42,353 nucleotides of DNA from Promethearchaeota archaeon (GTDB lineage: Archaea > Asgardarchaeota > Lokiarchaeia > Sigyniarchaeales > SOKP01): assembly GCA_016839915.1 (NCBI GenBank), contig JAEOTH010000080.1, positions 1-42,353 of the forward strand, read 5' to 3'. Every line of letters starts with the position of its first letter. The stretch's first letter is position 1. The position numbers were made by a program, and so were the translations under genes. The notes beneath the pieces are model-generated. The model searched no databases and was not told the origin of the DNA. It saw only the letters and a list, made by a program, of their open reading frames with translations. Below are positions 26,184 through 29,506 of the stretch, one piece after another.

Positions 26184-27173
26184 ATGTTGACTCCAGAACA
26201 AATGAAAGAAATATTAAACGAAAATGTAATCAATCTTAGATTTCACGCTCGTGGTGGACAAGGTGGTGTTACTGCCTCCAATTTATGTGTTGAAGCTTTT
26301 TATGGTTATGGAGTATGTCAACCCTTATTTGGGGCAGAGCGTATGGGATCTCCTACTGAAAGTTATGTTAGACTAAGTGCTAATGAAGATTTAGTTAGAA
26401 CTAATGAACAAGTCTATGCTCCACATGCTGTTTCTGTACTAGATCCTTCTCTCTTAGGAGAAGTTGATGTAATAGCAGGAATTGCGCCCGGAGGATGGCT
26501 TATTATAAATACTACTATGGATCAGATTACTATTCAAGAAGTTATTGGTCGAAAAGATATAAATATAGCGACTATTGATGCATTAAACATTGCAATGGAA
26601 ATTCTTGGTAGAAATATAACGAATACAATTATATTAGGAGCTTTATTAAGAGTTATGCCAATTTTTTCTACTGATGCATTAGCAGATGCTATAATGCGTC
26701 GATTCAAAGGTGAAGTAGCAAGTAAAAATATCGCTGCTATAAAACGAGCATATGAAGAAACTTGTATATATGAAACTCCAGATGCTCCCACTATTGACTT
26801 TACTACTGATACAAAAGTTCCCTGGCAACAAGTGTATCCTGGATTGCCCGGATTTAAAGAGCTGGATGACGCGGGGGTATGGTATTGTGATGAGGATGTA
26901 ATAGAAATTGGTAGTAAACATGTAAATACAGGTTCTTGGGGTGAATGGGACATGATTTGGGATGAAGAAAAATGTACTGATTGCGCTCAATGCTGGTATA
27001 TATGCCCTGATTTTACGATAATCAGAGAAAAAGGAGAAGATGAATTATGGCATATGAAAGGAATTGACCAATTTCATTGTAAATCTTGCCAAAACTGCCT
27101 AGAGATTTGTCCTGTTCAAGCTATAACTAAAAGATTAAAACAAGGTCCGGCAGCTTGTGCCACACCTGAGTAA
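26184..27173 (+). CDS. porGD: 2-oxoacid:ferredoxin oxidoreductase, fused gamma and delta subunits
   Basis: First gene of a three-gene operon for a ferredoxin-reducing 2-oxoacid (probably pyruvate) oxidoreductase, which makes acyl-CoA, CO2 and reduced ferredoxin. The 329-residue product fuses the gamma domain (RFHARGGQGGVTASN at 18-32, then LFGAERMGSPTESYVR) to a delta-type ferredoxin domain. The two [4Fe-4S] clusters are bound by C264, C267, C270, C274 and by C299, C302, C305, C309. In many archaea gamma and delta are separate genes, so the fusion is a feature of this lineage or locus. The alpha gene follows 14 bp later with a GAGGT ribosome-binding site. ATG at 26184 is the first in a long open frame. 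Confidence 0.93.
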   Translation: MLTPEQMKEILNENVINLRFHARGGQGGVTASNLCVEAFYGYGVCQPLFGAERMGSPTESYVRLSANEDLVRTNEQVYAPHAVSVLDPSLLGEVDVIAGIAPGGWLIINTTMDQITIQEVIGRKDINIATIDALNIAMEILGRNITNTIILGALLRVMPIFSTDALADAIMRRFKGEVASKNIAAIKRAYEETCIYETPDAPTIDFTTDTKVPWQQVYPGLPGFKELDDAGVWYCDEDVIEIGSKHVNTGSWGEWDMIWDEEKCTDCAQCWYICPDFTIIREKGEDELWHMKGIDQFHCKSCQNCLEICPVQAITKRLKQGPAACATPE

Positions 27174-27187
27174 AAGAGGTAAATATT

Positions 27188-28417
27188 ATGAGTATAGAAC
27201 CAATGAGAATTTTTTTTAAGGAAATAAAAGAACCTATCGAAACTACAATGATAGGTAATTATGCTGTTGCTGGTGGAGTGACTCAAACAGATCCAGATGT
27301 GATATGTGCTTTTCCCATTACCCCTCAAACACAATCAGTTGAAGGATTATCTGATGTCGTTCATCACGGAAGATTAAAAGCAGCCTTTGTGAATGTAGAA
27401 TCAGAATTAGCTGCAATAAGTTTTTCAACTGCTGCTTGTGCTGCAGGAGCAAGATCTTTTACTGCTACGGCAAGTCAAGGATATTTATTAATGACTGAGG
27501 CACTCCCTATGGCTGTAGGGTGGAGATTACCGCTAACAATGATGATTTCTGCTAGAGCGTTTAATTCACCTAATTTATCTATTTGGAACTCTTGGGAATA
27601 CACTCAAGTTAATTCTGAACTAGGTTGGAATATAATTGTTTCTGAAAATGTTCAGGAGACCTATGACGCAGCAATACTTTCAGTGATGGTCTCAGAAGAT
27701 TCTTTATTTCCAACTATATTTGTACATGATGGCTTCATAATATCTCATTCAGTCCAAAAATTAACATTAATACCAGATGAAACAGTTAAAAGAATGACAC
27801 CTAAAAAACAAAGACACACAATTGATCCATCAAAACCAGGAACATGGGGTGGTATCGTTACTCCTTCTTATTTTATGGAAGGAAGAGCACGACTGGAAGA
27901 AGCTAAACAGCCAGTTTTAGGGCAAATGAAGGATGTCTTTAAAAAATTTAAAGCAGAAACTGGAAGAGAATATAACCCTATTGAAACGTATAATTTAGAC
28001 AACTCATCAAGAACAGCTTTTTGTACAATGGGTTCGTTATGTGGAAATATTATCAGTTGGATGACAAAAAACAAAGATATCGGGTTAATTAAGATAAGAG
28101 CCTATCGACCGTTCCCATCCGAAGAATTACGCAAAATCGTACAACAACATGATATCGAGAAACTTATTATTTTAGAAAAATCGGATTCATTAAATGGCCT
28201 TTTACCACCATTTTCAATGACAATTGCTTCAGCATTATATCCACTTGGAACACTATTCAGAAGTTTTATTGTAGGTTTAGGCGGTCGAGATGTTACAAGG
28301 GATGAGTTTGATATAGCAAAAAAGAAGATGGAATCTGTAACAGATATGAAAGGGCAGCTTTATCAATATCTAGGAGTTAGGGAAACTAAACAAAAAATTG
28401 CAGGGGTGGATCGATAA
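27188..28417 (+). CDS. porA: 2-oxoacid:ferredoxin oxidoreductase, alpha subunit
   Basis: Contains the pyrimidine-binding domain of the ThDP enzyme and the C-terminal transketolase-like domain. Typical pieces are seen along the 409 residues: GNYAVAGGVTQTDPDVICAF then PITPQTQSVEGL (substrate/CoA region), VNVESELAAISF with the cofactor-activating Glu, TATASQGYLLM, RLPLTMMISARA, WNSWEYTQVN, and in the C-terminal part AYRPFPSEELRK and LEKSDSLNG. Length is normal. The similarity is closest to pyruvate enzymes, although 2-oxoacid specificity is hard to read. A GAGGT element precedes ATG. The stop codon TAA is followed immediately by the ATG of the beta subunit (no gap), indicating coupled translation and fixed stoichiometry. 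Confidence 0.93.
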   Translation: MSIEPMRIFFKEIKEPIETTMIGNYAVAGGVTQTDPDVICAFPITPQTQSVEGLSDVVHHGRLKAAFVNVESELAAISFSTAACAAGARSFTATASQGYLLMTEALPMAVGWRLPLTMMISARAFNSPNLSIWNSWEYTQVNSELGWNIIVSENVQETYDAAILSVMVSEDSLFPTIFVHDGFIISHSVQKLTLIPDETVKRMTPKKQRHTIDPSKPGTWGGIVTPSYFMEGRARLEEAKQPVLGQMKDVFKKFKAETGREYNPIETYNLDNSSRTAFCTMGSLCGNIISWMTKNKDIGLIKIRAYRPFPSEELRKIVQQHDIEKLIILEKSDSLNGLLPPFSMTIASALYPLGTLFRSFIVGLGGRDVTRDEFDIAKKKMESVTDMKGQLYQYLGVRETKQKIAGVDR

Positions 28418-29506
28418 ATGTCAAAACCAGAGAGAAATATCATTAATTTTGAGGAAATTTTGGGTAGAAATGAAAAGAGTAATGTCTTATTTTTCAACTA
28501 TGATAATGAAGCTTTTATGAATACAGGAATCCAAGAAAGTGGTGGAACACCTCCTTTTGCATCTACTACAACTGGCCCCGCAGGAGAGAAAATTCCTGGT
28601 AAAATAGGTGTGAAACAGGATTTAGTTACTCCATTTGCTTTCTATGGAACAAAAAAATTATTCTTAGCCACAGTAAATCCAGCATATCCAAATGACTTTA
28701 TGGGAAAGGTAGCCGATGCTCTTAAATCGAATGGATCTGCTTTCATCCAAGCATATTCTGACTGTATGAGAGGATGGAGACATGGTGCGGCTGATGCCTT
28801 AAAAATATCCAAACTAGCAACAGATTGTGGTTATTGGCCTCTTTATACAGCAAGAGTAGAAGATGGTATTCCTACATTTACTTATTATCGTGGATTAGAT
28901 ATTGATAAAGATCAATTTGTAGAATACCTTAAATCAATGGGTAGGTTTAGGCACTTATTTAAACCTAAATTTATGGAGAAAGAAATTGATGAGATTATTT
29001 ATTTAACAGAACAACGAAATAATAAATTGAAAGGATTAATTGAAAAATTTGGCACTGAAAAACCTGTAGATGTTTATCGAGTTAATCGAAAAAAACTGCA
29101 ACCTCAAATTCATTTACAACCTGGTCATGGTTTATGTCCTGGATGTGGAGCTGGGATGGTCTTGAATCAATTGGCAACAGCAGCAACTGCAGTTGCTGAG
29201 AGGAATATAATTTACGTGAATAATACAAGTTGTTCAGAGGTTTCAACTTCAAAAGACAACGTCACTTCTTGGAATGTTCCTTGGGTACACCATTTATTTG
29301 AATCTGGTGCTACAGTTGCTGAAGCTATCTCAACTGCAAAAAAGATCATGAAAGCGAAAGATCTTTATAGTCAAGAGATACCTTGGATTATTCATATAGG
29401 AGGAGATGGCTCTACATATGATATTGGTTTTCAATTTCTCAAAGCAGCACTTATTAGAACTAGTAGTTTTGTTGAAATGAATGAGTATTTGAAAAATCAA
29501 AAATAA
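28418..29506 (+). CDS. porB: 2-oxoacid:ferredoxin oxidoreductase, beta subunit in circularly permuted order
   Basis: Beta subunits bind ThDP diphosphate and one [4Fe-4S] cluster. All the expected parts are here but in swapped order. Residues 21-210 hold what is normally the second half: NYDNEAFMNTGIQESGGTPP (27-46), the cluster Cys C116 in SDCMRGW, YWPLYTARVEDG and the GRFRHLF tail. Residues 230-345 hold the normal first half: GHGLCPGCGAG with C240 and C243, C272 in NTSCSEVSTS, and GGDGSTYDIGFQ (328-339). The ThDP motif, normally GDG then about 27 residues then N, therefore has its GDG near the C-terminus and its Asn at N30. All four cluster cysteines are kept. The frame is continuous, with no gap after the alpha gene. 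No second beta copy is in the window. Identity of the subunit is certain; whether the order is natural should be confirmed. Confidence 0.88.
   Translation: MSKPERNIINFEEILGRNEKSNVLFFNYDNEAFMNTGIQESGGTPPFASTTTGPAGEKIPGKIGVKQDLVTPFAFYGTKKLFLATVNPAYPNDFMGKVADALKSNGSAFIQAYSDCMRGWRHGAADALKISKLATDCGYWPLYTARVEDGIPTFTYYRGLDIDKDQFVEYLKSMGRFRHLFKPKFMEKEIDEIIYLTEQRNNKLKGLIEKFGTEKPVDVYRVNRKKLQPQIHLQPGHGLCPGCGAGMVLNQLATAATAVAERNIIYVNNTSCSEVSTSKDNVTSWNVPWVHHLFESGATVAEAISTAKKIMKAKDLYSQEIPWIIHIGGDGSTYDIGFQFLKAALIRTSSFVEMNEYLKNQK

Follow-up and report, generated by a model that had tools for sequence, protein, structure and literature searches.

Whole-domain order varies among thiamine diphosphate (ThDP) enzymes. 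The closest described systems to the gene analyzed here are the beta subunit of archaeal pyruvate:ferredoxin oxidoreductase (PorB; NCBIfam NF008819, PRK11865; structure 9bt4), the beta subunit of oxalate oxidoreductase (NF045792; 5c4i, 5exd, 5exe), and homodimeric pyruvate:ferredoxin oxidoreductase (PFOR; Desulfovibrio africanus 1b0p, Moorella 6cin), which has the same domain for ThDP and the proximal cluster. Lokiarchaea are archaea related to the ancestors of eukaryotes. For the cultured Lokiarchaeon Prometheoarchaeum, 2-oxoacid:ferredoxin oxidoreductases (OFORs) are presented as the oxidative route for 2-oxoacids from amino acids (PMC7015854). Here we describe an OFOR beta gene of a Promethearchaeota archaeon, class Lokiarchaeia, in which the two halves match known beta subunits in swapped order. 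The window, meaning the whole stretch of 42,353 nucleotides that was analyzed, is contig C27 (JAEOTH010000080.1) of a draft metagenome-assembled genome (MAG) with 221 contigs. We give a probability of roughly 0.93 to the reading that the gene encodes a natural circularly permuted beta subunit (ThDP and proximal [4Fe-4S] cluster) of an OFOR of the pyruvate (POR), 2-oxoisovalerate (VOR) or oxalate oxidoreductase type. The gene and its parts are as follows.

28418..29506, plus strand: OFOR beta subunit, read as circularly permuted, 362 amino acids; a single open reading frame (ORF), with matches to PDB sequences and to a hidden Markov model (HMM), and an alignment
28478..29017, plus strand: residues 21-200, corresponding to the C-terminal half of an ordinary beta (canonical HMM from about 129) and holding DNEAFMNTGIQ and the fourth cluster cysteine
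28502..28534, plus strand: DNEAFMNTGIQ, residues 29-39, the Asn half of the ThDP/Mg site; site of hairpin insertions in relatives of two genera
28763..28765, plus strand: C116, fourth [4Fe-4S] ligand by homology, invariant in 31/31 aligned sequences and present in 61/61 by motif
29018..29107, plus strand: linker, residues 201-230, connecting the former C-terminus to the former N-terminus; subject to purifying selection
29108..29467, plus strand: residues 231-350, corresponding to the N-terminal half of an ordinary beta (canonical HMM about 13-133)
29135..29146, plus strand: C240-x-x-C243, cluster ligands
29231..29233, plus strand: C272, third cluster ligand
29402..29410, plus strand: G329-D330-G331, the GDG half of the ThDP motif, invariant

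The motifs and cysteines lie in the single frame where the original prediction had put them, with YDNEAFMNTGIQ at residues 28-39 and GGDGSTYDIG at 328-337. In a phmmer search against PDB sequences, residues 3-115 of the POR beta chain 9bt4_C aligned to residues 226-347 of the query, and residues 119-282 aligned to residues 23-193. The oxalate oxidoreductase beta chain 5c4i_C gave the same crossed alignment at 143.4 bits. A canonical-beta HMM was built from 33 ordinary Asgard betas (34 were found and one truncated sequence was omitted). It matched the window beta once at 163.1 bits (HMM 129-316 to residues 20-207) and again at 104.6 bits (HMM 13-133 to residues 228-352). On these alignments, chance is excluded as the source of the crossed match.

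The same HMM matched all 61 permuted homologues as two domains in crossed order. This family set holds distinct proteins that match over more than 300 residues, with shorter matches at contig edges and identical copies dropped. For three members (L124, L125 and L126) the sequence is the frame lying downstream of an interruption in the gene, and L100 is cut short by 9 residues where its contig stops. The parent is covered once in these sequences (HMM about 11-133 and about 127-317), with an overlap of -14 to +7 positions in the 61 and of 3 to 7 in 48 of them. The break in the canonical HMM is at about position 130, with the helix behind GDG on one side of it and the strand running into DNE on the other. 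By arithmetic, the residues flanking the break sum to the canonical GDG-to-DNE spacing within about 1 residue. The original prediction placed the C-terminal half ahead of the N-terminal half and the break between GDG and the Asn of the ThDP motif. Both claims hold; GDG is followed by a helix, and the break is in the loop behind this helix.

The order of the motifs is conserved as well. NTGIQ stands before CxGCG in 58/58 sequences of the set that contain NTGIQ, and both motifs occur in permuted order within one contiguous frame in 58/61, the other three being the interrupted genes. The cluster-cysteine motifs are found in all 61 sequences and DNEAFMNTG in 58, the rest again being frames of interrupted genes. 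The four cysteines (C116, C240, C243 and C272), GDG and DNEAFMNTGIQ are invariant in 31/31 aligned sequences, which are the window and 30 author-chosen loci of the 60 found in the named-genome scan described below, none with an insertion.

PorB was the top NCBIfam match of the beta, in two stretches and at 202.8 bits. Both have the four cluster cysteines, GDG, DNExxMNTG and an operon with alpha, gamma and delta. In contrast to PorB, the halves here are swapped, the score is below the 405-bit cut-off, gamma and delta are fused, and alpha is without some residues common to the ordinary Asgard alphas compared. Oxalate oxidoreductase beta was the second NCBIfam match, also in two stretches (176.1 bits against a cut-off of 590). 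The gamma-delta fusion is common to this locus and oxalate oxidoreductase, and the fused chain matches the delta model of that enzyme over 57-308 of 316. Unlike oxalate oxidoreductase, the locus has the swapped order, stays under the cut-offs of all the oxalate models listed and has an alpha that keeps PITP, at which position the oxalate enzyme has a loop of its own. Relative to homodimeric PFOR, the difference is a cut within the ThDP domain itself that separates the GDG half of the GDG...N motif from the Asn half. The Pfam match of the window beta, TPP_enzyme_C, covers only residues 19-111 at 21.7 bits, slightly below the cut-off of 21.9 bits. Reading the substrate from NCBIfam equivalogs was rejected, as no subunit passes one and gamma passes the subfamily model PorC_KorC alone.

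Selection was assessed by comparing the codons of the window gene with those of 60 others. Over the whole gene, the median proportions of synonymous (pS) and nonsynonymous (pN) differences were 0.737 and 0.117. The corresponding medians were 0.744 and 0.193 for the N-terminal 20 residues (58 rows), 0.701 and 0.163 for the junction at residues 201-230, and 0.85 and 0.14 for the last 12 residues. The ratio of nonsynonymous to synonymous rates (dN/dS) was 0.035-0.053 in the 8 unsaturated comparisons of the 14 closest shown, these values being rough since several dS exceed 1. Purifying selection acts on the permuted frame, the junction and new termini included.

Genomes were counted as carrying the permuted gene when a match had an E-value below 1e-100 and spanned the new junction. 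A preliminary survey took in 57 relatives and the genome of the window itself. The search then covered 227 genomes of the phylum, 83 of which belong to the class. Junction-spanning matches were present in 66 of the 83, six of them cut by contig ends. Two single-contig genomes, G004 (3.34 Mb) and G042 (4.36 Mb), carry the permuted gene; it was not found in a third, G009, which is 81% complete. Junction-spanning matches were absent from the other 144 Asgard genomes scanned, where the best E-value of any genome was 2e-37. Among the places listed, these genomes gave half matches of about 22-228, as the ordinary order predicts. A separate scan of named genomes with short exact peptides, which finds close relatives only and is thus a weak test outside Asgard archaea, gave 60 loci. 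Fifty-nine were titled Loki-, Hel- or Sigynarchaeota (one is the chromosome CP070831.1) and one was titled Bathyarchaeota. The last, L083, was considered as spread beyond the class and rejected, since the contig is taken as that of G043, a genome of the window's taxonomic order, in a misnamed bin.

In both an alpha tree and a tree of betas rearranged to the ordinary order, a single branch with support of 100 sets the permuted operon apart. The alpha tree held 26 of 57 permuted-operon alphas and 28 ordinary rows (26 genes), and the beta tree held 19 of 61 permuted and 33 ordinary sequences. Both were quick, midpoint-rooted trees of Asgard sequences only. A single origin within the class, under Loki-, Hel- and Sigynarchaeota titles, followed by mostly vertical inheritance and some losses, fits these data without being proven by them. 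An ordinary Asgard parent of the permuted clade was sought and no close one was found; the stem branches are long (1.71 changes per column for alpha and 1.12 for beta).

The beta ORF begins right behind the stop codon of the alpha gene, with no gap. Its two partners in the window are the following.

26184..27173, plus strand: fused gamma-delta subunit (POR domain and 4Fe-4S motifs)
27188..28417, plus strand: alpha subunit (Pfam POR_N and PFOR_II; under the NCBIfam PorA_Arch cut-off)

Gamma-delta, alpha and beta lie in that order on one strand at 46 of the 61 distinct loci, as they do in the window. Eight other loci have alpha and beta, and seven have beta alone; most of these 15 incomplete loci are cut by contig or locus ends. 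Of the 57 alpha columns that are conserved in ordinary rows, 44 have an unchanged commonest residue in the permuted operon. Residues that were lost include the His-Ser after the E-S-E motif and an Asp and an Arg of the S-D...R-D region. These changes may alter the substrate or CoA site, and the reaction itself may differ. Synteny was rejected as a guide to the substrate because neighbors vary among loci. An enoyl-CoA hydratase-like gene (Pfam ECH_1 for the one tested) is near 18 of the 61 distinct loci, and relatives of the window's M28 peptidase are near 14.

Two genomes have an additional ordinary-order beta close by. It is fused behind 2Fe-2S and 4Fe-4S domains and has a NuoF-like gene as its neighbor, with the permuted operon 0.25-2.9 kb downstream (L120:10674-12176 and L120:12161-13999, both on the minus strand; L099:1127-2617). 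Pfam was run on the L120 pair only, and no alpha for the fused beta was seen within the L120 and L099 stretches examined. The fused beta and the NuoF-like gene are possibly an NAD-linked OFOR.

The permutation is real and widely conserved and the enzyme probably working, as judged from the conservation, selection and operon context above. The permuted beta would most likely work like ordinary PorB, with a remodeled alpha. The chain starts in the loop that separates the GDG-following helix from the strand bearing D-N-E. It continues with the old C-terminal half and a new linker of about 30 residues joining the old termini, and the old N-terminal half comes last, ending with GDG and its helix. 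On folding, GDG and DNE would meet and hold Mg-ThDP at the alpha interface. The four cysteines would hold the cluster, and electrons would exit via the delta ferredoxin domain to ferredoxin. The predicted reaction would convert a 2-oxoacid to an acyl-CoA, or the reverse. An AlphaFold2 model of beta had a predicted TM-score (pTM) of 0.80 and a mean predicted local distance difference test score (pLDDT) of 72, and in Foldseek all 24 matches with an E-value up to 0.001 were POR/PFOR or oxalate oxidoreductase chains.

The proposed origin by tandem duplication and trimming did not gain support. BLAST matches of the two termini overlap by about 16-19 residues on ordinary betas, which would suit a relic helix left at each terminus by tandem duplication. 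Such a relic was rejected on the small HMM overlap given above and on a shuffle test. When the N-terminal extension was compared with the canonical GDG helix, 43% of shuffles scored as high, versus 0% for the C-terminal segment used as a positive control. As our boldest extension, the permutation may go back to an RNA of the ancestral gene that was circularized by back-splicing.

In four genomes, the beta frame is interrupted in or just after DNEAFMNTG by hairpin insertions of 30-31 nucleotides. The carriers belong to two genera (g3 and g4) of the window's family, and the window's own gene is without an insertion.

L071:3032-3061, genome G085: hairpin insertion, 30 nucleotides
L077:6110-6139, genome G084: hairpin insertion, 30 nucleotides
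L074:6113-6143, genome G021: hairpin insertion, 31 nucleotides
L090:6119-6149, genome G034: hairpin insertion, 31 nucleotides

A scan of the site in all loci gave 105 distinct uninterrupted stretches, ordinary betas included. Apart from these there were nine: four are the insertions, one is L094 and four are short matches from ordinary betas. The reading that we favor, with reasonable though far from full confidence, is that the insertions are candidate bulge-helix-bulge (BHB) introns of the cbf5 kind. The cbf5 pre-mRNA introns are short, with BHB-like exon borders and recognition by EndA (PMC2738675), and the four insertions appear alike. They differ from the cbf5 introns in lying in a permuted porB-like gene of Lokiarchaeia, in their length of 30-31 nucleotides, and in being candidates. 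The same source names cbf5 as the only confirmed gene with an archaeal pre-mRNA intron as of 2009, with predicted ones in other genes (PMC2738675).

The BHB cut falls two nucleotides into each three-nucleotide bulge. In L071, L077 and L090, the cut so predicted is the sole excision of 20-44 nucleotides that restores DNEAFMNTGIQES, and in L074 it is one of four such excisions. L090 forms a full hBHBh' structure (helix, bulge, helix, bulge, helix), with 4 central, 9 inner and 7 outer pairs. The inner helix pairs 9/9 in both L071 and L077, with three pairs changed on both sides. L071 and L074 are in complete operons, no uninterrupted copy was found in any of the four genomes, and two EndA-type genes are present in each of 6/6 genomes searched, all four carriers included. 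Translational bypassing, small palindromic mobile elements or inactivating insertions would account for the same hairpins, and we regard these alternatives as unlikely on balance while giving them real weight. The structures in L071, L074 and L077 are imperfect BHBs: L071 and L077 have 3 of 4 central pairs and 0-1 outer pairs in BHB register, and in L074 the inner helix has 2 pairs in this register and the outer helix is poor. Among 1050 positions scanned, the site included, 2, 2, 11 and 1 scored as well on the central and inner helices in L071, L077, L074 and L090, respectively. With two sequences, the covariation between L071 and L077 is weak, as 53 of 500 shuffles were as high. The odds of introns are also lowered because two of the four interrupted genes, those of L077 and L090, are in disturbed operons. 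Rfam gave 0 matches on the L071 insertion, the only one of the four that was run. A 685-amino-acid ORF upstream of alpha in L090 was considered as a homing endonuclease and dropped, with Pfam giving weak helix-turn-helix matches under the cut-offs.

Several observations weigh against a working permuted subunit. The gamma, alpha and beta scores are all under the NCBIfam equivalog cut-offs, and the permuted-operon alpha is without residues common to all 28 ordinary Asgard rows. Seventeen of the 83 class genomes, some of them 99% complete, have no junction-spanning match; among these, G073 has a contig-edge fragment alone and G047 an ordinary beta alone. Four of the 15 incomplete loci have room for a partner and are without it. 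In L090 (G034), gamma-delta shares a contig with alpha and lies 6.7 kb upstream of it, and in L092 (G053), it is on another contig. L078 (G063) has no alpha, and gamma-delta and alpha are on another contig beside a broken beta. L077 (G084) has neither alpha nor gamma-delta, and no close copy of them was found elsewhere in G084. In the AlphaFold2 model, pLDDT is below 50 at segments 31-74, 277-281 and 331-359. The Foldseek alignments are sequential and partial, as a permutation would give, with a TM-score of 0.38 by query for 9bt4_C. Because active-site segments have such low pLDDT and the alignment is partial, the meeting of GDG and N30 is one that we infer. The claim that the new termini lie close to the cofactor is made doubtful by the low pLDDT at 331-359 and by the position of the break after the helix following GDG, which we take to be the far end of that helix from the diphosphate in known ThDP folds.

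A rival reading is that the gene is a decaying rearranged pseudogene or a non-catalytic paralogue, with ordinary betas elsewhere doing the work. The window's own genome has two ordinary betas on other contigs, some class genomes are without the permuted operon, and the four interrupted copies and the lone beta of G084 would also suit such decay. Against it stand a dN/dS of about 0.04-0.05, the invariance of catalytic and cluster residues (31/31) and the three-gene operon at 46 of the 61 distinct loci, and we consider it very improbable. A rearranged fragment beside an ordinary beta, which the original prediction had raised, fails: the permuted gene is the beta of the operon at those 46 loci, and the ordinary-order fusion near two of the operons is a different beta. 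The original view of a genuine and probably functional permutation is thus upheld by the class-wide conservation, purifying selection, operon context and invariant ligands.

It is less probable still that the gene is permuted and its mature product ordinary, with the transcript circularized or trans-spliced as for permuted tRNA genes, which are known in Archaea (PMC3218864). The BHB-like insertions in four relatives and the EndA-type genes would fit that scheme. In the window, however, the start codon is right after alpha and the stop codon follows the GDG helix; the linker and both termini are under selection at the amino-acid level, and the frame is contiguous and permuted in 58/61 (one cut by 9 residues). 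An assembly artefact or chimera, in which this contig would carry two half genes put together the wrong way round, has next to no chance and is refuted because independent assemblies agree: the window comes from a draft MAG, but the order and junction are the same in the 66 class genomes, two of them single-contig, contig names point to different assemblers and synonymous sites are largely saturated between relatives, so the assembly swap that the original prediction had allowed for fails.

Rearranged copies occur near some of the loci. Extra copies of the 3' end (GDG half) of the permuted beta lie downstream of or beside the gene in L115, L042, L123 and L100. The copies at L115:3-344 and 1294-1635 are identical in protein and flank a PIN-domain ORF (L115:550-1038). 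At L042:5447-6275 and L123:6778-7606, a PIN ORF and a small ORF stand between the intact gene and the fragment, and L100:2053-2400 is a further copy. Insertion of a VapBC-like mini-element at the end of the gene, with duplication of that end, would give such a pattern. In G063, gamma-delta and alpha occur in the copy of the operon at L094:6001-8057 (contig C275), where the beta match ends after residue 36. The remainder of the contig, about 1.95 kb of unrelated DNA, holds a 541-amino-acid reverse ORF with no Pfam match. The other locus of this genome (L078:3711-7086, contig C94) has an intact lone beta behind a 719-amino-acid ORF without a Pfam match over the cut-off. An insertion that duplicated the beta 5' end would explain both G063 loci.

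Neither a permuted OFOR beta nor introns in its gene were described among the open-licence PMC matches listed. A broader proposal joins a new OFOR subclass, with the ThDP subunit permuted through its cofactor motif and a remodeled alpha, to EndA-removed BHB mRNA introns of 30-31 nucleotides in the same motif; we rate this combination at only a little better than even odds. The permuted beta, cut through its cofactor-binding core and widespread in an archaeal class, is a natural experiment on chain connectivity versus folding order, subunit assembly and cofactor binding in a central multi-subunit metalloenzyme. Linear models score it low or in two pieces, and therefore Asgard counts of such enzymes may be off. 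If confirmed, the candidate introns would extend archaeal pre-mRNA splicing beyond cbf5 and into Asgard archaea.
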